DNA of 64,000 nt, taken from Arthrobacter sp. MMS18-M83 (lineage in GTDB: Bacteria > Actinomycetota > Actinomycetes > Actinomycetales > Micrococcaceae). The stretch covers positions 3,348,001 to 3,412,000 of the forward strand of contig NZ_CP113343.1 of the NCBI RefSeq assembly GCF_026683955.1, in the 5' to 3' direction. The notes under the pieces were generated by a model that was not told where the DNA came from, searched no databases, and saw nothing but the letters and a program-made list of their open reading frames with translations. Shown here one piece after another: positions 3,820 through 31,588 of this stretch (position 1 is the stretch's first letter; each line of letters starts with the position of its first letter). A program made the position numbers and the translations under genes.

Positions 3820-4884
3820 CTATTCAACCAGACCCTTATTGGCGAGTTCCTTCAGTGCTTGATCCCATGCTGAGGAATCGGCCCCGTTAGAACTCCAGGA
3901 AGTTTTGATGAATTGCGTAATGGCCTCTTTAGTTGACCAAGCTGGCAGCGGCGCCCCGATTTCCTTCAACCGTCGCAAGTCAGCGCAAGCGTGATCGATG
4001 TCGCCGGCACGCTTGATGGGTGTGTGCACAATCCCCACGTCAGTTCCGGGCGCTGCGTCGATGGCATACTGTGCCAGTTGGTCCAAACTTGTCCGGACTC
4101 CTGTTCCGCAGTTTAACACTCGGGCGGGCTCCCCGACGGCCGAAGGGTTCTCCAGGCACCACGCCACCAGCGCCGCCAGATCCTCGACGTGAACGAAATC
4201 ACGCGTTTGGGACCCATCTCCGTAAATGGACAGTTCGCGGCCTTCTTTCAGCCGGGCAAGAAATGCCGCAAGTACACCGGTGTACGGATTGTGGAGCGCT
4301 TGGCCTTGGCCAATTACGTTCTGCGGTCGAATAATTGTGGCGCTTACTCGGCCGTAAACGATTCTTTCCAGAGCCGTTTCGCCTGCCGATTTGGTCTCTC
4401 CGTAAACGGACACCGGTCCGTGAGGGTCCTCCTCGTTGGACGGTAGCAGACGTCCGGATGGTCCGCCATCTAGACCCCTTGGTAGCACCTCACCAGCTTC
4501 CAAGAGACGCCCTTCACCATACACAGCCCGTGAGCTCATTGTGACAATGGGAACCATCCAGTTTGCCGCAGTGGTTGCCGCAAGCTGAGTGCCGCCTACG
4601 TTGACCCGACGGTAGTGATCCTGCTCGTACATAGACTGCGAAGTACCGGTTTCAGCCGCCAGGTGAACGATAGCCTCGTGCGGGGGTACGGACTCCCAAG
4701 CGTCCGACTCAGAGACGTCCCTGTTTAATACGACGCCCGGAAAACGTTCAGCCGAGTGTTCCGGATTTTGATGCACCTGAGTGTCCAGCGAATCCATCGC
4801 CGTCACTTCGTGCCCCTTTGTGACGAGCAGCCTAGCCAGATGCTGACCAATAAAGCCAGCCCCGCCGGTAATCAGAATTTTCAT
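3820..4884 (-). CDS. NAD-dependent sugar-nucleotide epimerase/dehydratase
   Basis: This is an extended short-chain dehydrogenase of 354 residues. The N-terminal Rossmann motif is GGAGFIG (residues 7-13) and the catalytic tyrosine-lysine pair is in VYGETK. These features fit enzymes that epimerise, dehydrate or reduce nucleotide sugars in surface polysaccharide synthesis. The start at 4884 is preferred over the longer open frame because the protein then begins MKILITGGAG, as in the family, and is preceded by a strong GGGGGA ribosome site. It follows the ISL3 remnant by 30 bp, and its stop lies near the IS end. The precise substrate (UDP-, dTDP- or GDP-sugar) cannot be read from the sequence. 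Confidence 0.8.
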   Translation of the reverse strand: MKILITGGAGFIGQHLARLLVTKGHEVTAMDSLDTQVHQNPEHSAERFPGVVLNRDVSESDAWESVPPHEAIVHLAAETGTSQSMYEQDHYRRVNVGGTQLAATTAANWMVPIVTMSSRAVYGEGRLLEAGEVLPRGLDGGPSGRLLPSNEEDPHGPVSVYGETKSAGETALERIVYGRVSATIIRPQNVIGQGQALHNPYTGVLAAFLARLKEGRELSIYGDGSQTRDFVHVEDLAALVAWCLENPSAVGEPARVLNCGTGVRTSLDQLAQYAIDAAPGTDVGIVHTPIKRAGDIDHACADLRRLKEIGAPLPAWSTKEAITQFIKTSWSSNGADSSAWDQALKELANKGLVE

Positions 4885-5563
4885 TTGTTCCCCCAATATC
4901 ACTGGTCGTTGGGCACCAAAGCCCCTTGTTGGACTCGTGCTGTTGCCACCCAAACGAGCGATCCGCGAGGCGAGGCGTGTCTGTCTGAGGGCCAAAAGAA
5001 CGCCCATTTGTCACCCACTCTAGCGGGATCTGAATGTAGGCACGGTACGGTGGATCGGGGAGAAATCACTTGGTCACCTAGGATCTGAGGGCTCGGGGGG
5101 CTGTTGAGGTGATGCGCATTCGACGTTCCCTGTGTAAACCTAGGTTTGTGCAGCCGGATGTCGCCATTTTGATCCCAAATCTGTGAGAATACGGTGTCGG
5201 ATACGCAACAGGAGCCCAGATGTCATCGCGCGACGGTTTGTCAATAGAGGCAATGCGGCCCCTCCCGCGGCAGCTCCCACGCGACATGGAGCACTAAATG
5301 ACCTTAACAGTTGAGAGTTTCTCGTTGGCTCCCCACAAGACAATTGCGATTTGACATCGATTCCGCGCTATCGAAGACCTGTTCATGAATCCCAGTACCT
5401 GAGCGCGCGGCTTCTATAAGGTCTGTTTTGGCCCGTGAGCGGTCAGAGTTTGTCTCCGAAAGTGTATCGAGGCTGATAGGAGCTGAGAAGTTGCTGCCGA
5501 TGACGCCCGCATACGGGTGAAGACAATGGTTTTTAGTAGTCAAATCGCGCCGCATGAACTTCC
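4885..5563. other. 679-bp intergenic region with no recognisable gene
   Basis: This gap between the epimerase and the Lrp regulator should contain the epimerase promoter and the end of the regulator transcript. The short open frames in it have no family features and look like noise. GC is lower than in the adjacent dehydrogenase operon. It therefore marks the boundary between the polysaccharide region and the core block. Confidence 0.5.
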
Positions 5564-6028
5564 CTACCGTGTATCCAAATCCTCGAACACCAGGAACGTC
5601 TGCGTGTCCTGCACGCCCGGCATTGACTGCAACTGGTCGAAGATGACCCGGCGCAGATGGATATTGTCGGTGGCGCGGACCAGGAGGATCACGTCGAAGT
5701 CGCCGCCCACCAGCGCAATGTGCTGCACCTCCGGAATGAGCCGAAGCTCTTCCCGAAGCTCGCGCCACGAGTGCTGCTGCACCTTGAGCGTGACGTAGGC
5801 GGATGACTTCAAACCGGCCTTGATGGGGTCCACCAGCGCAGTGAACTTGGTGAGCACACCCTCGCCCGTCAGCCGGGAAATTCTCGAGTACGCGTGCGCC
5901 CTGCTGATGTGGACGTTCTCCGCCACTTGGGTGACTGACATCCTTCCGTCCCGGGTCAGCTCGGCAATGATGTCCCTGTCCACCTGGTCCAGGGGGACTT
6001 CTGCCTGATCTGCTTCGACCTCGGCCAT
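5564..6028 (-). CDS. bkdR: Lrp/AsnC-family regulator of the adjacent 2-oxoacid dehydrogenase operon
   Basis: The protein has 154 residues: an N-terminal winged helix-turn-helix (DQVDRDIIAELTRDGRMSVT onward, with the recognition helix around ISRAHAYSRISRL) and a C-terminal RAM/ligand-binding domain containing GGDFDVILLVRA. The start at 6028 has a GGAG site five bases upstream and gives a normal family length; the longer frame to 6073 does not. It is divergently transcribed from the dehydrogenase genes with a 171-bp intergenic space, the classic arrangement of BkdR. Regulation by branched-chain amino acids or their keto acids is inferred from this context. Confidence 0.82.
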   Translation of the reverse strand: MAEVEADQAEVPLDQVDRDIIAELTRDGRMSVTQVAENVHISRAHAYSRISRLTGEGVLTKFTALVDPIKAGLKSSAYVTLKVQQHSWRELREELRLIPEVQHIALVGGDFDVILLVRATDNIHLRRVIFDQLQSMPGVQDTQTFLVFEDLDTR

Positions 6029-6199
6029 CGCATCTCCAATTCGTCCACAAGGTGAGCCCGTTACCCAGCTCACATTTGCAATTTGTCTTCCAGACTAGAC
6101 GTTTCCAGCAAGCTTTTCCATGATTCTGGCTAGAGCTGGATACGAAACTTCTCTAGGGAACATACTGGTGACAAATAGTGGATACAGAAGGACGGACCA

Positions 6200-26033: not shown

Positions 26034-26849
26034 ATGTCAGCATGGCTCGAAGTCGGCCCGGACAACTACGTGCTGGAGACCGAGGGTTGCCTGCTCAACA
26101 CGGGCCTCGTGATAGGCACGGAACGAGCCATGGTGATCGACACCGGCTGCGGCCCCCGTCAAGGCCGGCAGATCCTCGCCGCTGTCCGCGAAAAGACCCA
26201 GCTGCCGCTGGTAGTCGTAAACACCCACGCCCACTACGACCACTACTTCGGTAACGCCATTTTTGCCGACGACGGCGTCACGGAGTTCTGGGGGCACGTC
26301 AACTGTGCAGCCACAATCGACGACGACGGCGACCACCAGCGCCGCTTCGTCGCCGCCACGGAACCGGAGATGGCCTCGGGCAAGGGCGACGCCGTCGAGA
26401 TCGTCATACCCAATGCGATCGTCAAGGACCAGCCCGTCCTGGTTGACCTGGGCGGCCTGACCGCCACCCTGTTCTACCTGGGCCGCGGCCACACCGACGG
26501 CGACCTCCTGGTAGGCACGCCCAGCACCCTCTTTGCCGGCGACCTCGTGGAACAAGGGGCCCACCCATCGTTCGAGGACTCCTACCCGGAGGACTGGGCG
26601 GACGTCCTGCGGCACATCTCGGCCCTGCGCCACCGCTACGAATTCCTGATCCCCGGCCACGGAAAGCCCTGCAGTGACCAGTTCGTGAAGACCATGGCCG
26701 ACACAATGTCCACAGCGGTACGGCAAGCGAGGCAGTCGATCCGGGACACGCCGTCGGACGCTACTAAAGCGATCCCGGTGCTTCCCTACGGACCCGAACA
26801 ATCACGCTGGTTCATCAAGCGGCTCCAGGAAACGCAGGCGCACCACTAA
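26034..26849 (+). CDS. Metallo-beta-lactamase-fold hydrolase
   Basis: The 271-residue protein has the full MBL zinc-binding signature HAHYDH at residues 65-70, GHTDGD around 159, the bridging aspartate in LFAGDLVEQ, and the C-terminal PGHGKP. It is probably a cytoplasmic hydrolase of the glyoxalase-II/lactonase-like superfamily; the substrate is not evident. The start at 26034 follows a GGAGAAA site. Its stop overlaps the end of the convergent cation-efflux gene by four bases. No operon partner is apparent. Confidence 0.85.
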   Translation: MSAWLEVGPDNYVLETEGCLLNTGLVIGTERAMVIDTGCGPRQGRQILAAVREKTQLPLVVVNTHAHYDHYFGNAIFADDGVTEFWGHVNCAATIDDDGDHQRRFVAATEPEMASGKGDAVEIVIPNAIVKDQPVLVDLGGLTATLFYLGRGHTDGDLLVGTPSTLFAGDLVEQGAHPSFEDSYPEDWADVLRHISALRHRYEFLIPGHGKPCSDQFVKTMADTMSTAVRQARQSIRDTPSDATKAIPVLPYGPEQSRWFIKRLQETQAHH

Positions 26850-27463
26850 GGGGTGGCGTGGTTGAAGGCGTGGCCGGCCTCAAGGAGAGCGTAGTAAATG
26901 ATCACGACGCCGGCCAGGGGATCGGCCCACCACCAGCCGAACAGGGCGTTAAGGGCGAGCCCGGCCAGGACCGCGCCGGCCAGATAGGCATCCACAAGGG
27001 TCACTTTCCCTTCCGCGCGGAGCACCGGATTGCCCAAGCTGCGCCCGGTGCGGATCTTGCCCCACGCAAGGGCGAGCATGACCACGAAGGTCAGGGCCGT
27101 CCATGCGATGCCCGGAGCTGAGGTGCCAGGGCGGACGCCTGTGGCAAACACAATGGCCAACTGGATGAGCAGGTAGGCGCCCAAAACGGCGAAAGCCGTC
27201 CCTATCAGTCTCATCGCGGGAGCTTCGCGCTCCTTGTGGGCGCCCTTGAGCTGCCACACCACTACCACCGACGCGAAGATCTCGATCAGGGAATCCAAGC
27301 CGAAACCGGCCAGCGCAGGGGAACCGGCCTGAATGGCGGCGGCGGCCAGTACTCCGAGGCCGATCACGTTCCAGGCCAGGGTCGCGTATTCCAGACGAAG
27401 GCCGCGGCGCAACAATATCCCGGAGTCTGCGGTTGGGGTTGTGTTGACGTCCGGACTGGTCAT
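26846..27463 (-). CDS. Cation-efflux-like membrane protein (CDF superfamily transmembrane part)
   Basis: The 205-residue protein has six hydrophobic segments and resembles the membrane domain of cation diffusion facilitators. The acidic residues lie in FGLDSLIEIFASVVVVWQL and in VTLVDAYLAGAVLAGLALNALFG, followed by WWADPLAGVVI. It lacks the C-terminal cytoplasmic metal-binding domain found in full CDF transporters (about 300 residues). Transport of a divalent metal is likely but the ion is unknown. The start at 27463 excludes a basic non-hydrophobic extension. It sits 25 bp behind the deoR stop, on the same strand. Confidence 0.72.
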   Translation of the reverse strand: MTSPDVNTTPTADSGILLRRGLRLEYATLAWNVIGLGVLAAAAIQAGSPALAGFGLDSLIEIFASVVVVWQLKGAHKEREAPAMRLIGTAFAVLGAYLLIQLAIVFATGVRPGTSAPGIAWTALTFVVMLALAWGKIRTGRSLGNPVLRAEGKVTLVDAYLAGAVLAGLALNALFGWWWADPLAGVVIIYYALLEAGHAFNHATP

Positions 27464-27488
27464 GGGGTCTGCTTCTTTCTCGGGAGCG

Positions 27489-28301
27489 CTAGCGTCCGGA
27501 GGCGTTCGCTGCCGCGACGTGCACCGTGACGCCCAATTCCTGGATGTTCTCCTGGGTGTCTTGCGCCAGTTCGTCGTCGGTGACAACGGCATCTAGTTGC
27601 TCGATCGGCGCCACCCGGAACTTCGCAAAGGTTCCGAACTTGGTGCTGTCCGCCAGCAGGAAGCAGCGCGACGCTGACTCGAGCGCGGCCAGTTTCATTT
27701 CCACCTTGTCCATGGACGGCGTGGTGACGCCGCGGGACAGGCTCCACGCGCCCGTACTCATGAAGAACAGATCGATGTTGATGTGCTTGATGGCGTCGGC
27801 TGCCATGCGGCCCGAGCTTGAGGCGCTGGAAACATCCACCACGCCGCCGGTGTGGATGGTCTCAACGTTCGGGTACGCGAACAAAGACGTGACGACGTAA
27901 AAATCGTTGGTGACCACCGTGATGTTCTTCCGGGCGCCGAGATAGGGGACCACGGATTGGCAAGTTGTACCGGCGTCGAGGAACAGAACCATGTCGTCCT
28001 CGACGAACTGGGACGCAAGCTCGGCGATTGCTTTTTTCCGCGGCAGCTCCAGCTGCGCCCGGGATTCCCTCTCCCGGGGAGGTTCCTGGCTGGTCCCCTC
28101 CGCCAAACGCACGCCTCCTTGGACCGACAACACATGCCCGGCATCCTCGAGGGCTGTGATGTCGCGCCGGATAGTCATGTGGGAGACGTTCATGGATTCC
28201 GTGAGGCTGCGGATGCTCAGCACCCCCTCGCGGCGAAGCAAGCGAAGGATTTCCTGATGGCGCTGCTCCGGGATCAGGGGAGGTGATGTTGACGAACTCA
28301 A
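27489..28301 (-). CDS. DeoR/GlpR-family transcriptional regulator
   Basis: This repressor-type regulator has 270 residues. The N-terminal DeoR helix-turn-helix spans residues 13-65 (RHQEILRLLRREGVLSI...VSHMTIRRDITALEDAG). The sugar-phosphate-isomerase-like effector domain contains LFLDAGTTCQSV, VVTNDF and LLADSTKFG. Such proteins respond to phosphorylated sugars or sugar acids. Its upstream region carries a 34-bp motif that recurs upstream of the KDPG aldolase gene 2.5 kb away. The likely targets are therefore its own gene and that sugar-acid operon. Confidence 0.87.
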   Translation of the reverse strand: MSSSTSPPLIPEQRHQEILRLLRREGVLSIRSLTESMNVSHMTIRRDITALEDAGHVLSVQGGVRLAEGTSQEPPRERESRAQLELPRKKAIAELASQFVEDDMVLFLDAGTTCQSVVPYLGARKNITVVTNDFYVVTSLFAYPNVETIHTGGVVDVSSASSSGRMAADAIKHINIDLFFMSTGAWSLSRGVTTPSMDKVEMKLAALESASRCFLLADSTKFGTFAKFRVAPIEQLDAVVTDDELAQDTQENIQELGVTVHVAAANASGR

Positions 28302-28330
28302 AGTTGCTCCTTCGCGGTGGACAACCCCAT

Positions 28331-28364
28331 CTTAACAAGTTTTCACACACTGTTCCGATTTGTG
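28331..28364. promoter_or_regulatory. Putative DeoR operator, copy 1 (upstream of deoR)
   Basis: A 34-bp stretch starting CTTAACAAGTTTTCACA and ending CCGATTTGTG matches 30882-30915 at 33 of 34 positions. It lies 30 bp upstream of the deoR start and about 78 bp upstream of the divergent arsR start. The half-sites TTCACA and TGTG are in inverted orientation. Autoregulation of the DeoR gene is inferred. Confidence 0.72.
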
Positions 28365-28409
28365 CTTGCCGGAGCCGGCTTTCCTGATAGGTGCGCGGCC
28401 TTGCCTTAA

Positions 28410-28445
28410 ACATCGACAGATGTAAATATTTACGTGTGTCTATGT
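28410..28445. promoter_or_regulatory. ArsR operator: 36-bp imperfect palindrome over the arsR start codon
   Basis: Two 18-bp arms match at 15 of 18 positions, with the perfect core GTAAATATTTAC at 28422-28433. The palindrome covers the presumed -10 region and extends past the ATG of arsR at 28442. ArsR/SmtB repressors typically bind imperfect 12-2-12-type palindromes, so this is very likely the autoregulatory operator. The lack of a ribosome site before the ATG suggests a leaderless or near-leaderless transcript. Confidence 0.75.
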
Positions 28446-28792
28446 CTTTGGAGTTAACGCCCGTCCAGGCGGTGGCGTGTTGTTCGCCGCTATCCAGGGA
28501 ACCGCTCTCGGAATCGGAAGCCGAGGGGATTGTGCCGCTGCTGAAGGCGCTAGGCGATCCGGTGCGGCTGCGGCTGATGTCCTTGGTGGCGTCTCACGAG
28601 GGCGGCGAAGCCTGCGTGTGCGATCTGAACGACGCCTTTGAGTTGTCCCAGCCGACCATCAGCCACCACCTGAAGGTCCTGCACGAAGCCGGGCTGTTGG
28701 AGCGGGAAAAGCGAGGCGTCTGGGTCTACTACCGTGCACGCACCGACGCCCTGGAAAACCTTGCCGCCCTCATCGGGGGAAAGAGCCGGTGA
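28442..28792 (+). CDS. arsR: ArsR/SmtB-family arsenite-responsive repressor
   Basis: The 116-residue winged-helix repressor has the helix-turn-helix at about residues 60-83 (DLNDAFELSQPTISHHLKVLHEAG). Metalloid ligands are visible: a CC pair at residues 13-14 and cysteines 58 and 60 in ACVCDL. This resembles the Corynebacterium-type ArsR, which binds As(III) with two adjacent N-terminal cysteines and one near the DNA-binding domain. It is the first gene of an operon with the aquaglyceroporin and arsC, and its stop overlaps the next start (GTGA). Binding of As(III) or Sb(III) should release the palindrome at its start. Confidence 0.9.
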   Translation: MSLELTPVQAVACCSPLSREPLSESEAEGIVPLLKALGDPVRLRLMSLVASHEGGEACVCDLNDAFELSQPTISHHLKVLHEAGLLEREKRGVWVYYRARTDALENLAALIGGKSR

Positions 28793-29529
28793 GCGTGCTG
28801 AGACGGAAGATAGTGGCGGAGTTCGTAGGCACCGCCTTCCTGGTCATGGCCGTGGTCGGGTCCGGCGTCATGGCCTCGCGACTGTCCCCGAACGACGTCG
28901 GACTGCAGCTTCTGGAGAACAGCATCGCCACCGGCGCCGCGCTGGTGGCGTTGATCCTGGCCCTGCAACCGGTCTCGGCATCCTTCAATCCCGTGGTCAC
29001 GCTGGTGGAACGGGCGCTCGGGATCCTGGACACGCCCACCACACTGGCACTGATCGCCGCCCAGTTCGCCGGCGGCCTGGCCGGGACCGTGATCGCCAAT
29101 CTGATGTTCGGTCTCGACGCCGTGACGCTCTCCACGCATGAACGTGCGGGGACAGGGTTGTGGCTTGGCGAGATCATCGCCACCGTCGGGCTGTTCCTGG
29201 TGATCTTTGGCACCGTTCGTTCCGGTCGCGCCGAAAGGGTGGCTTTCGCCGTCGGCGGCTACATCACGGCCGCCTACTGGTTCACCAGTTCCACCAGTTT
29301 CGCCAACCCCGCAGTGACCGTGGCCCGGACCATCACTGACACCTTCGCCGGCATCGCTCCGGCCTCCGCCCCGGCGTTCATCCTCGCCCAGCTGCTGGGC
29401 GGCGCCGCAGGATTCTTCCTGATCCGTGCTCTGTACCCAGCCATACCCGTCTTGGCCGCGGCCGCCTTGGCCGCGCCCGCAGCGCCCGCGCCCGCCGTGG
29501 CGACGGCCGATCGAAAGGTCCTCTCATGA
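28789..29529 (+). CDS. aqpS: Aquaglyceroporin of the arsenic operon (AqpS-like)
   Basis: This MIP-family channel has 246 residues and six transmembrane helices. The two pore half-helices carry the NPV variant (SFNPVVTL) and the standard NPA (FANPAVTV). It ends in an Ala/Pro-rich tail of about 25 residues. In operons that lack an arsenite pump, such a channel lets As(III) made by ArsC flow out of the cell down its gradient, as known for Sinorhizobium AqpS. No arsB or acr3 is present in this operon, which supports that role. GTG start; four-base overlaps with arsR and arsC indicate tight coupling. Confidence 0.85.
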   Translation: MSVLRRKIVAEFVGTAFLVMAVVGSGVMASRLSPNDVGLQLLENSIATGAALVALILALQPVSASFNPVVTLVERALGILDTPTTLALIAAQFAGGLAGTVIANLMFGLDAVTLSTHERAGTGLWLGEIIATVGLFLVIFGTVRSGRAERVAFAVGGYITAAYWFTSSTSFANPAVTVARTITDTFAGIAPASAPAFILAQLLGGAAGFFLIRALYPAIPVLAAAALAAPAAPAPAVATADRKVLS

Positions 29530-29948
29530 GCACTGAAACCATCAAGAAACCGTCCGTTCTCTTCGTCTGTGTCCACAACGCTGGCCGTTCCCAGATGGCC
29601 GCGGCGTTCCTCACCACGCTGGCCGAGGGGCGGATCGAGGTCCGTTCCGCCGGGTCCGAGCCTGCAGACAAGGTCAACCCCGCCGCCGTCGAAGCCATGG
29701 CCGAGCTGGGCATCGATATGTCCGCCGAGATCCCCAAAGTCCTCACCACCGAGGCCGTGAAGGAATCCGACGTCGTGATCACTATGGGCTGCGGAGACGA
29801 GTGCCCGTACTTCCCTGGCAAGCGCTACGAGGACTGGGTCCTTGAAGACCCGGCCGGCCAGGGCATCGAGGCCGTCCGTCCGATCCGCGACGAGATCAAG
29901 GCGCGCATCGAGGACCTCATCGAGTCCCTCACTCCCGCAGCCAAGTAG
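29526..29948 (+). CDS. arsC: Arsenate reductase, low-molecular-weight phosphatase type
   Basis: The 140-residue enzyme reduces As(V) to As(III). The phosphatase-like loop C15-V-H-N-A-G-R-S is complete (CX5R), and the general-acid segment is VLEDPAG. The sequence is close to the actinobacterial enzymes that use mycothiol and mycoredoxin instead of a thioredoxin relay. Two more cysteines occur at GCGDEC (residues 88-93). It overlaps aqpS by four bases. A 19-codon Cys-rich open frame with its own ribosome site follows after 65 bases, before the hairpin that ends the operon. Confidence 0.9.
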   Translation: MSTETIKKPSVLFVCVHNAGRSQMAAAFLTTLAEGRIEVRSAGSEPADKVNPAAVEAMAELGIDMSAEIPKVLTTEAVKESDVVITMGCGDECPYFPGKRYEDWVLEDPAGQGIEAVRPIRDEIKARIEDLIESLTPAAK

Positions 29949-30013
29949 CCGACGTCCCGGGTCAAGGAACCGGACTCGCCTGAGCCGAAAGACGGAAAGG
30001 GGGGGCGAACTGG

Positions 30014-30073
30014 ATGGATACCGGATGCTGCACCGACACGGGTTGCTGCGACGACGATCTGGACTGCTGCTAA
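30014..30073 (+). CDS. Candidate 19-residue Cys-rich micropeptide of the ars operon
   Basis: The open frame encodes MDTGCCTDTGCCDDDLDCC and a TAA. Six of 19 residues are cysteine, in three CC pairs (5-6, 11-12, 18-19), and the rest are mostly Asp, Thr and Gly. A purine-rich ribosome site (AAAGGGGG) ends about eight bases before the ATG. It lies 65 bases behind arsC and directly before a hairpin, so it should be on the arsenic operon transcript. Thiol pairs are the ligand type used by ArsR and ArsD for As(III), so binding or chaperoning arsenite is a reasonable guess. I recognise no family. Expression and function are unproven. Confidence 0.5.
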   Translation: MDTGCCTDTGCCDDDLDCC

Positions 30074-30090
30074 AGCAGGAACCGCCCACG

Positions 30091-30119
30091 GCCTGCCGGA
30101 CCCACAAAGCCCGGCAGGC
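30091..30119 (+). terminator. Hairpin at the end of the ars operon
   Basis: GCCTGCCGG and CCGGCAGGC form a perfect 9-bp stem with an 11-nt loop. It begins 18 bases after the TAA of the micropeptide. There is no clear U-tract, which is common for terminators in high-GC actinobacteria. Confidence 0.6.
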
Positions 30120-30225
30120 ACCCTCCCTTGAACCGCACAATCAACAGATGAACGTCGGGGCCGGAAGGATCGAACTGTATATCGGATTCGGCATCAGCTC
30201 GCTGAAATCCGTGGACTTGGCATTG

Positions 30226-30308
30226 AAGGAATGGAACGCATGCGCCTGGTTCGGGACGACATCAAGTCCCGGGTCCACAAGCTGTACGCCGAACTCGTGG
30301 AAAACTAA
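30226..30308 (+). pseudogene. C-terminal remnant of a second arsC
   Basis: The reading [20 protein letters not shown], continuing LYAELVEN and a stop, resembles the last 27 residues of low-molecular-weight arsenate reductases, including the IEAVRPIRDEIKARI end of the intact arsC just upstream. No catalytic CX5R loop precedes it, and the sequence before 30226 does not continue the family. It is the tail of a decayed paralogue, so the ars locus was once longer. Confidence 0.6.
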
Positions 30309-30352
30309 GCCGCCGGCGTTTCTTCCGCGGTCGATTGCGGGACACTGGAGCC

Positions 30353-30886
30353 ATGGATCCGGGCCGGGAAGCAACCGTCGCCGGATACAGGCGTGCCCGC
30401 CGGGAGCTGGCCAGTTGGCTGGAGACCGCGACGGCAGCCGATCTGCAACGCAAGAGTAACGGAACCCGCTGGACCAATGAGGAACTGCTCTTCCACATGG
30501 TCTTCGGATACATGATCATCCGGGCGCTTCTGCCATTGGTCCGGTTCATCAGCCGTTTGCCCCGCTCCTGGAGCAGGGGCTTCGCTGCCGCTTTGAACGC
30601 CGCCACAGGTCCGTTCGACGTCGTGAACTATTGGGGATCCGTTGCCGCCGCCACGGTCTATAACCGGCACCGGATGGGCCGGAAACTCGAAAAGACGATC
30701 ACCGCGCTGGCCCGCCGACTCGAACGCGAAACGCCGGAATCCCTGGCCCGGTCCGCGCCCTTTCCCACCCGGTGGGATCCCTTCTTCACAGCTGACATGA
30801 CGCTGACCGACACCTACGCCTATGCCACACAGCATTTCGACTTCCACGCCAAGCAGCTGAGCCTCCGGTCGCCGCACCCCTCTTAA
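30353..30886 (+). CDS. DinB-superfamily protein
   Basis: The 177-residue protein is predicted to form a four-helix bundle of the DinB/YfiT type. The conserved N-terminal helix ASWLETATAADLQRKSNGTRW ends in TRWTNEELLFHMVFGY, where His and Glu resemble the metal-binding first motif. The C-terminal TYAYATQHFDFHAKQL supplies two further histidines. Members are often thiol-dependent (mycothiol or bacillithiol) transferases, but the substrate is unknown. The start is uncertain: ATG 30353 has GGAG only two bases away, and a TTG at 30335 is an alternative. Its stop codon lies inside the downstream DeoR-type operator. Confidence 0.72.
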   Translation: MDPGREATVAGYRRARRELASWLETATAADLQRKSNGTRWTNEELLFHMVFGYMIIRALLPLVRFISRLPRSWSRGFAAALNAATGPFDVVNYWGSVAAATVYNRHRMGRKLEKTITALARRLERETPESLARSAPFPTRWDPFFTADMTLTDTYAYATQHFDFHAKQLSLRSPHPS

Positions 30887-30915
30887 CAAGTTTTCACAGA
30901 CTGTTCCGATTTGTG
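30882..30915. promoter_or_regulatory. Putative DeoR operator, copy 2 (upstream of the KDPG aldolase operon)
   Basis: This motif is identical to 28331-28364 except for one base. It contains the inverted half-sites TTCACA and TGTGAA separated by 13 bases (30893-30917), and starts 59 bases before the eda ATG. The first bases overlap the stop codon of the DinB-like gene. The match to the deoR upstream region makes it the probable binding site through which the regulator controls the sugar-acid operon. Confidence 0.75.
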
Positions 30916-30940
30916 AATATTTGGGGTAATCTCTTAATCA

Positions 30941-31588
30941 ATGTTAACCAAATTCGAAGTACTAGAGACCATCGTCCGCACCGGCGCCTTGCTGATTGCC
31001 CGCCTGGACAGTGCCGACGAGGCCTACCGCGTATCTGAAGCTGCCATCGAGGGCGGCATCCGTGCAGTGGAGGTCCCGTTGACTGTTCCCGGAGCCCTGG
31101 GAGTCATCGAGCGGCTTGCCGACAAATACGGGGACCAAGGCATCGTGATCGGTGCCGGGACCGTGCTCGACGCAGAGGCCGCCTTCGCAGCCATCTCAGC
31201 GGGTGCGCGGTTGCTGGTCAGCCCGCAATTCAACCCCAAGATGATCGCTGCAGGAAACCGCTACCAAGCCGTCACTGCCAGCGGAGCGTTCACCCCCACG
31301 GAGGTCGTCAACACCCTGGAAGCCGGGGCGGACATCATCAAGCTGTTCCCCGCTGAACTGGGCGGGCCTTCATACGTCAAGACCATCCTTGCGCCACTGC
31401 CGCAGGCACCCATCATGCCTTCCGGCGGAGTGACCCCCGCGAACGTCGGCGCCTGGTTCGACGCCGGTGTGACCGCCGTCGGCGTGGGAAGTTTTGTGAC
31501 AAAGGCGGCCCGGAACGACGGCGACTACGGACTCGTTGCCCGCGCTGCACAGACCTTCCTCGCAGCGATCGAGGAAGCCCGGCGCTAG
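30941..31588 (+). CDS. eda: 2-keto-3-deoxy-6-phosphogluconate / 4-hydroxy-2-oxoglutarate aldolase
   Basis: This class I aldolase of 215 residues cleaves KDPG to pyruvate and glyceraldehyde-3-phosphate. The Schiff-base lysine is Lys134 in DIIKLFPAE, and the general acid/base glutamate is Glu44 in GIRAVEVPLT. The glycine-rich phosphate site is PSGGVTPANVGAW followed by VGVGSF. It is the first gene of a probable operon with an MFS sugar-acid transporter and a P-loop kinase-like protein. The operon carries the DeoR-type operator just upstream. Confidence 0.9.
   Translation: MLTKFEVLETIVRTGALLIARLDSADEAYRVSEAAIEGGIRAVEVPLTVPGALGVIERLADKYGDQGIVIGAGTVLDAEAAFAAISAGARLLVSPQFNPKMIAAGNRYQAVTASGAFTPTEVVNTLEAGADIIKLFPAELGGPSYVKTILAPLPQAPIMPSGGVTPANVGAWFDAGVTAVGVGSFVTKAARNDGDYGLVARAAQTFLAAIEEARR

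Follow-up and report, generated by a model that had tools for sequence, protein, structure and literature searches.

Small bacterial proteins that are rich in cysteine and use thiolate ligands include the metallothioneins SmtA and MymT. Very short cysteine-rich frames also occur in regulation: the polycysteine attenuators of mycobacteria, which are leader ORFs, were reportedly described by Canestrari et al. in 2020. Cysteine-rich regulatory sORFs are also treated in passages of PMC9094748. For arsenic operons, the reference system is ArsD, an As(III) metallochaperone and weak repressor (PF06953; PDB 3mwh, 3kgk and 3ktb). According to the sections of PMC4562236 used here, Cys12-Cys13-Cys18 of ArsD are essential for the chaperone function, and C-terminal pairs lie at 112-113/119-120. 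The same sections report that a hairpin between arsC and arsD in the ars1 operon of Bacillus sp. CDB3 lowers the expression of the part of the operon that lies downstream. One Rhodococcus ArsD carries ALCCNTGVCGDD near its start and ACCSTDDADSTTCC at its end.

The locus compared with these systems lies in a window of 64,000 nucleotides from Arthrobacter sp. MMS18-M83 (contig NZ_CP113343.1), the window being the whole stretch of DNA that was analysed (Table 1). Its arsR, channel and arsC genes as listed overlap successively by 4 bases, the arsR start being a mechanical GTG call. The best NCBIfam match of the arsC product was TIGR02689 at 104 bits, under the cut-off of 157.6. The first-pass annotation had proposed a micropeptide gene with CC pairs at residues 5-6, 11-12 and 18-19 and a ribosome site of its own; the frame, its coordinates and the pairs were all exact on re-reading of the sequence, and the site was located upstream of the ATG. 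In the typical relatives whose loci were read, the ribosome-site sequence is GGGAGGGGGTGAgctgaATG. The ATG is the likely start, because the frame of an upstream GTG runs into TGA in typical relatives; the window has GCG there. Among the ORFs of up to 40 aa on both strands of the window (ATG, GTG or TTG starts), the micropeptide alone contains three CC pairs. ArsD was not found in the window's own genome, nor was Acr3 in a search run without a positive control. Divergent from the arsenic operon, minus-strand positions 26846-28301 hold the genes of a DeoR-type repressor and of a protein that resembles cation diffusion facilitators (TIGR01297, below its cut-off).

Table 1. Features of the arsenic-resistance locus in the window, with the evidence for each.
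Feature	Position	Strand	Evidence
arsR/SmtB-family repressor gene	28391..28792	+	HTH_5 PF01022 7.5e-17; NF033788 HTH_metalloreg 95 bits (cut-off 55)
MIP/aquaporin-family channel gene	28789..29529	+	PF00230 65 bits
arsC, arsenate reductase, LMW phosphatase fold	29526..29948	+	PF01451 84 bits
Ribosome site GGAAAGGGGGGG, purine-rich, ending 8 nt before the ATG	29994..30005	+	sequence
Micropeptide gene, MDTGCCTDTGCCDDDLDCC and stop TAA	30014..30073	+	sequence, translation, homologue family
Hairpin, 9 bp stem, 11 nt loop, no T tail	30091..30119	+	folding: z -2.05; 9/200 shuffles fold at least as well
Flavoprotein-gene remnant, 21 codons, 67% identical	30154..30216	+	comparison with relatives
Remnant, 3' part of a second arsC-like gene, 26 codons, 88% identical	30219..30296	+	comparison with relatives

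Like ArsD, the micropeptide belongs to arsenic operons, and there are also similarities in cysteine spacing. A CC-x4-C arrangement at residues 5-6, comparable in spacing only to the Cys12-Cys13-Cys18 reported in the sections of PMC4562236, was found in 46/60 distinct peptides including the window's; the last two pairs form CC-x5-CC, like the reported 112-113/119-120 pairs, in 23/60. Both spacings, one at the start and one at the end, occur together in only 14 of the 60 (the three counts are of matches anchored at the peptide start or end), and the final residues are CC in 59/60. Whereas ArsD has about 120 residues and the ArsD domain, the peptides have 17-31 residues and no ArsD domain. PF06953 gave no match to three homologues (23-26 aa) even at E<=10, and an ArsD fragment from locus L045 matched it at 69.7 bits. 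We think that the peptide works like the thiols of ArsD but is not an ArsD. ArsA occurs at 7/80 named arsC loci. The idea that the peptide substitutes for ArsD, with a negative association to arsDA, was unsupported: one of the 7 loci with arsA holds the peptide, versus 27/73 without arsA (p = 0.41).

Homologues were collected from other genomes of the genus and the family, which brought the distinct peptides to 60; their place in the operon is the same, and the cysteines are retained. Profile A1, built from 32 homologues, matched 68/198 genomes of the same genus at E<=1. Sixty loci were then read: 58 places with E<0.1 in genomes other than that of the window, plus two full-length matches of weaker score. 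An intact peptide with an ATG start lay near the centre in 58 of the sixty. Locus L178 has a 24-residue form close to a contig end, and in L145 (Pseudarthrobacter sp. HLT1-5) the stop TGA has become TGG, so that the peptide frame is continuous with the flavoprotein. This stop loss, seen also as L047 on the same contig, is either a mutation or a sequencing error. The tally of genomes reached 59 with the window included, and L194 (genome G109) adds one, giving at least 60/198; G030, G039, G054, G091, G103, G123, G131, G181 and G185, whose best E values were 0.1-1, were left out. These carrier counts are lower bounds, since the profile misses some copies even within the genus, for example the one on contig C56 of G015 (L017/L037, found by an ORF scan) and L194, which came from reading flavoprotein loci. 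The homologues behind A1 came from a scan of 80 named arsC loci and other fetched loci; by the rule of the script, 28 of the 80 have a homologue on the arsC strand.

Beyond the genus, profile A1 gave no real match among 245 genomes of the family and 396 of the order. The restriction to one genus that this suggested proved to be a limit of sensitivity, as copies were later found in genera g24 and g7. Reading of 30 flavoprotein loci from the family search revealed the peptide in the same slot at L204 and L214 of g24, and profile A2 found those two alone among 23 genomes of that genus. In 197 family genomes, A2 added L219 of g7, where the peptide follows arsR-channel-arsC; three genomes in two other genera of the Micrococcaceae are thus carriers as well. 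The copies in these further genera keep the Cys pattern with other residues changed (MDDDCCTETGCCTNGTGCC). Among 248 order genomes, A2 gave four matches besides that of the window, all judged to be chance. Within these sensitivity-limited searches, the peptide family seems to be confined to the Micrococcaceae. The weak profile matches at L123, L218, L220, L223, L229, L230, L231 and L233 were judged chance on reading, and at L217, L221, L222, L224-L228 and L232 the script lists no CC ORF at the matching place.

Comparison of 63 distinct coding DNAs (56 distinct peptides, which four later finds raised to 60) suggests that the constraint is centred on cysteine. The six Cys columns hold Cys in 371/378 cells. 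Pooled pairwise dN/dS, the codon-level check that had been proposed, was 0.49 overall and 0.37 in the Cys columns, values that are descriptive because the sequences are related; codon position 3 holds the largest share of pairwise differences in four equal-length groups. The acidic spacer residues are conserved as well, and the net acidity (D+E-K-R) ranges from 3 to 8 with a median of 6. Differences in length always amount to a whole number of codons, partly because the script requires an open frame. For example, a CC module is duplicated in L172 (CCGDSGCCGDSGCC); the plasmid copy L236 has lost one CC module and has 12 residues. Cysteine is encoded by TGC 384 times and by TGT 4 times in the family, and the neighbours also strongly prefer TGC (TGC:TGT of 220:12 in arsC, 208:14 in the flavoprotein and 133:21 in trxB). 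At Gly4 (window 30023-30025), 47/50 coding DNAs use GGA, a codon whose share is 6-12% in arsC, trxB and the flavoprotein; at the second Gly, both GGC and GGT are used. This synonymous conservation of Gly4 hints at some nucleotide-level constraint too. The first-pass annotation had named arsC loci lacking the frame, frameshifts and cysteine loss as findings that would speak against its proposal; absences are indeed many and apparently clean, but Cys loss within the copies that are present is rare (7/378 cells).

The frame is thus almost certainly a genuine conserved gene of the arsenic-resistance operon, judging from comparative sequence analysis. That it might be a chance or decaying ORF without function is highly improbable; the frame is short and many relatives do not have it, but 100 dinucleotide shuffles of the window yielded zero ORFs of such length with three CC pairs, and across the 63 distinct coding DNAs the frame and the Cys pattern are maintained in a single slot, a conservation that largely refutes this explanation. 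Comparison supports well that this is a real and conserved arsenic-operon micropeptide gene with constraint on its cysteines. The As(III) chelator or carrier role put forward in the first-pass annotation would fit best, given the context, the cysteine pairs and the ArsD-like spacing, but its arguments from the operon end and from an operon without a pump fail to extend to the family as a whole.

The neighbours of the gene were mapped at 59 loci. All 59 have trxB (38) or arsC (21, window included) directly upstream on the same strand. Downstream, a flavoprotein gene follows at 56/59, a second-arsC remnant at two (the window and L132), and no reference gene at one (L172). No arsC of >70% identity lies upstream within the stretch examined at L133, L162, L174 and L180 (4/59). 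In the same stretches, acr3 was found upstream at 14 loci, a channel gene at 39 and both at none. The link drawn earlier between the peptide and an operon with only a channel and no pump is therefore not general. The peptide occurs without the flavoprotein at five loci, the window, L132, L172, L219 and L037; L219 has no flavoprotein within 1.5 kb downstream, and L037 has none and keeps the second-arsC remnant. No partner is fixed, as flavoprotein, trxB, acr3 and channel are each absent somewhere. The distal part of the operon has been deleted at the window, L132 and L037, where the leftovers of the flavoprotein gene and/or the second arsC differ. Many operons among L124-L183 contain runs of three or four arsC-like genes that differ in kind.

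The flavoprotein (for example, L033 about 4619-6049) matches Pyr_redox_3 (PF13738) and is distantly ArsO-like, with 58 bits versus a cut-off of 425. It is present in 166/198 genomes of the genus and 126/197 of the family, and its Cys-rich C-terminal tail also contains a CC. Common in Micrococcaceae and encoded in arsenic operons, this flavoprotein possibly represents an unnamed family. Many arsenic operons in the same genus are without the peptide, and at the 54 named loci with an adjoining flavoprotein the script found the peptide in 26 and none in 28, one of the latter (L047) being the stop-lost copy. On the flavoprotein tree, presence of the peptide requires 13 changes, at least 4 of them forced by well-supported branches; 4-7/500 label shuffles gave numbers as low as 13. 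By this comparison, presence appears to be clustered, with repeated loss or transfer, and the 13 changes imply that the peptide is dispensable.

The peptide had also been described as preceding the hairpin of the operon. A hairpin does lie downstream in the window, but it has no T-run, and most relatives have a similar or substitute hairpin between the peptide gene and the following flavoprotein gene. Only the loss of the flavoprotein gene from the window leaves the hairpin at the end of the operon, an end that is thus secondary. The initial scan was blind to this hairpin, since its loop limit was 8 and the loop has 11 nt. At L069:4549-4614, a long near-perfect palindrome with 33 nt arms, CCCAACTAGGTAGCAG...CTACCTAGTTGGG, replaces the usual hairpin. 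Look-alikes were seen in L037, L042, L057, L060, L065, L086, L095 and L099, between the peptide (or trxB) and the flavoprotein; palindromes of the L069 type are perhaps a dispersed REP-like element.

The hairpin raises the question of a regulatory leader, in which a short Cys-rich ORF would, through its translation ahead of a hairpin, adjust how strongly the flavoprotein gene is transcribed, like the mycobacterial polycysteine attenuators or the CDB3 hairpin. The peptide shares with the mycobacterial leader ORFs that it is a very short actinobacterial ORF with many Cys codons. The hairpin behind most copies, the flavoprotein after 56/59 and the GGA constraint at codon 4 are consistent with such a role. 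Moreover, the CDB3 hairpin also follows arsC in an arsenic operon and gives a precedent for partial termination in the sections of PMC4562236; it belongs to another organism and gene order, however, and no micropeptide is mentioned in those sections. Unlike the polycysteine leaders, the peptide gene lies inside the operon and has a ribosome site. Its acidic spacer residues are conserved too. A leader ORF and its hairpin would form one unit before the regulated gene, but here peptide, hairpin and flavoprotein come apart. By eye, 4 of 29 listed loci (L074, L084, L088 and L105) have the peptide without a long hairpin, L091 and L095 have a hairpin without the peptide, and five loci have the peptide without the flavoprotein. 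An Rfam scan of 28000-31000 also gave no family at the gathering threshold. A pure leader role is less likely for this separation, and we consider it unlikely overall; a secondary leader role could exist where peptide, hairpin and flavoprotein all occur.

Thiol pairs bind many soft metals, which would suit a general metallothionein-like peptide for Cd, Cu, Zn or Sb that is merely carried along with the arsenic genes. The peptide is small and Cys-rich like the bacterial metallothioneins, with cysteines that are probably thiolate ligands; it differs from their CxC/CxxC type in being shorter and acidic, with paired CC, and in being embedded in arsenic operons. Pfam and NCBIfam, metallothionein included, gave no match to three homologues at E<=10, such profiles being weak on peptides this short. 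As arsC or trxB adjoins the gene at every confirmed locus, this explanation seems distinctly unlikely; most loci were found via arsC or the flavoprotein, but the whole-genome profile search is free of such bias. Alternatively, the cysteine pairs might cycle between dithiol and disulfide and relay electrons to ArsC or the flavoprotein, with thioredoxin reductase or mycothiol as the source. The neighbouring trxB at 38/59 loci suggests this, as does the lack of a thioredoxin gene among the genes that the operon maps happened to show, whereas arsC lies directly upstream at the other 21, and three or more CC pairs with module duplication fit a ligand better. A redox carrier is accordingly judged quite improbable.

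The explanation that we regard as moderately probable is a free-standing arsenite-binding peptide, acting as a buffer or carrier in the arsenic-resistance operon. The computed support consists of the gene, its slot, the Cys-centred constraint, the expansion and contraction by whole codons and the persistence without the flavoprotein. Arsenite is the likely ligand on sequence grounds; the pairing of the thiols, the setting in arsenic operons and the position beside the arsenite-producing enzyme all favour binding of As(III). We infer translation of the frame, As(III) as the ligand and a function as carrier or sink. The soluble acidic peptide would bind As(III) as thiolates through its three vicinal cysteine pairs, capturing it soon after its formation from arsenate by ArsC; with six thiols, as many as two three-coordinate As(III) sites could be built. 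As an intracellular buffer or carrier, the peptide might deliver arsenite to the channel or Acr3 as the exit route, comparable to ArsD carrying As(III) for ArsA, or could pass it instead to the flavoprotein where that is present. A further-reaching proposal, which we hold tentatively and find somewhat doubtful, is that this might be the smallest genetically encoded arsenic metallochaperone: free-standing and with no folded domain, it would condense ArsD-type cysteine sites, serve any local exit or enzyme, and gain or lose CC modules between TGCTGC repeats.

The peptide gene is also found on plasmids. Full-length copies occur on pTC2 and pAD51 and a shortened copy on pYA7-1b, and all three plasmids were typed conjugative, which suggests that the peptide can travel with arsenic resistance. 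A tblastn search of plasmids with a 26-mer gave no match though these copies exist, the query being short and of low complexity. On pTC2 (CP000476.1 60882-62411; L234:4990-6519), the annotation calls the flavoprotein 'putative Secreted protein' and places its start within the peptide gene, in a different frame. None of the open-licence PMC papers searched was recognised as describing such a peptide. The three plasmid records list no gene for it in the PLSDB gene table, which is incomplete; routine gene calling would thus miss a conserved member of the operon. If the arsenite-binding explanation is true, a ribosomally made thiol ligand of about 19 residues would join the arsenic-resistance toolkit, and the peptide would offer a minimal pattern for arsenic capture.
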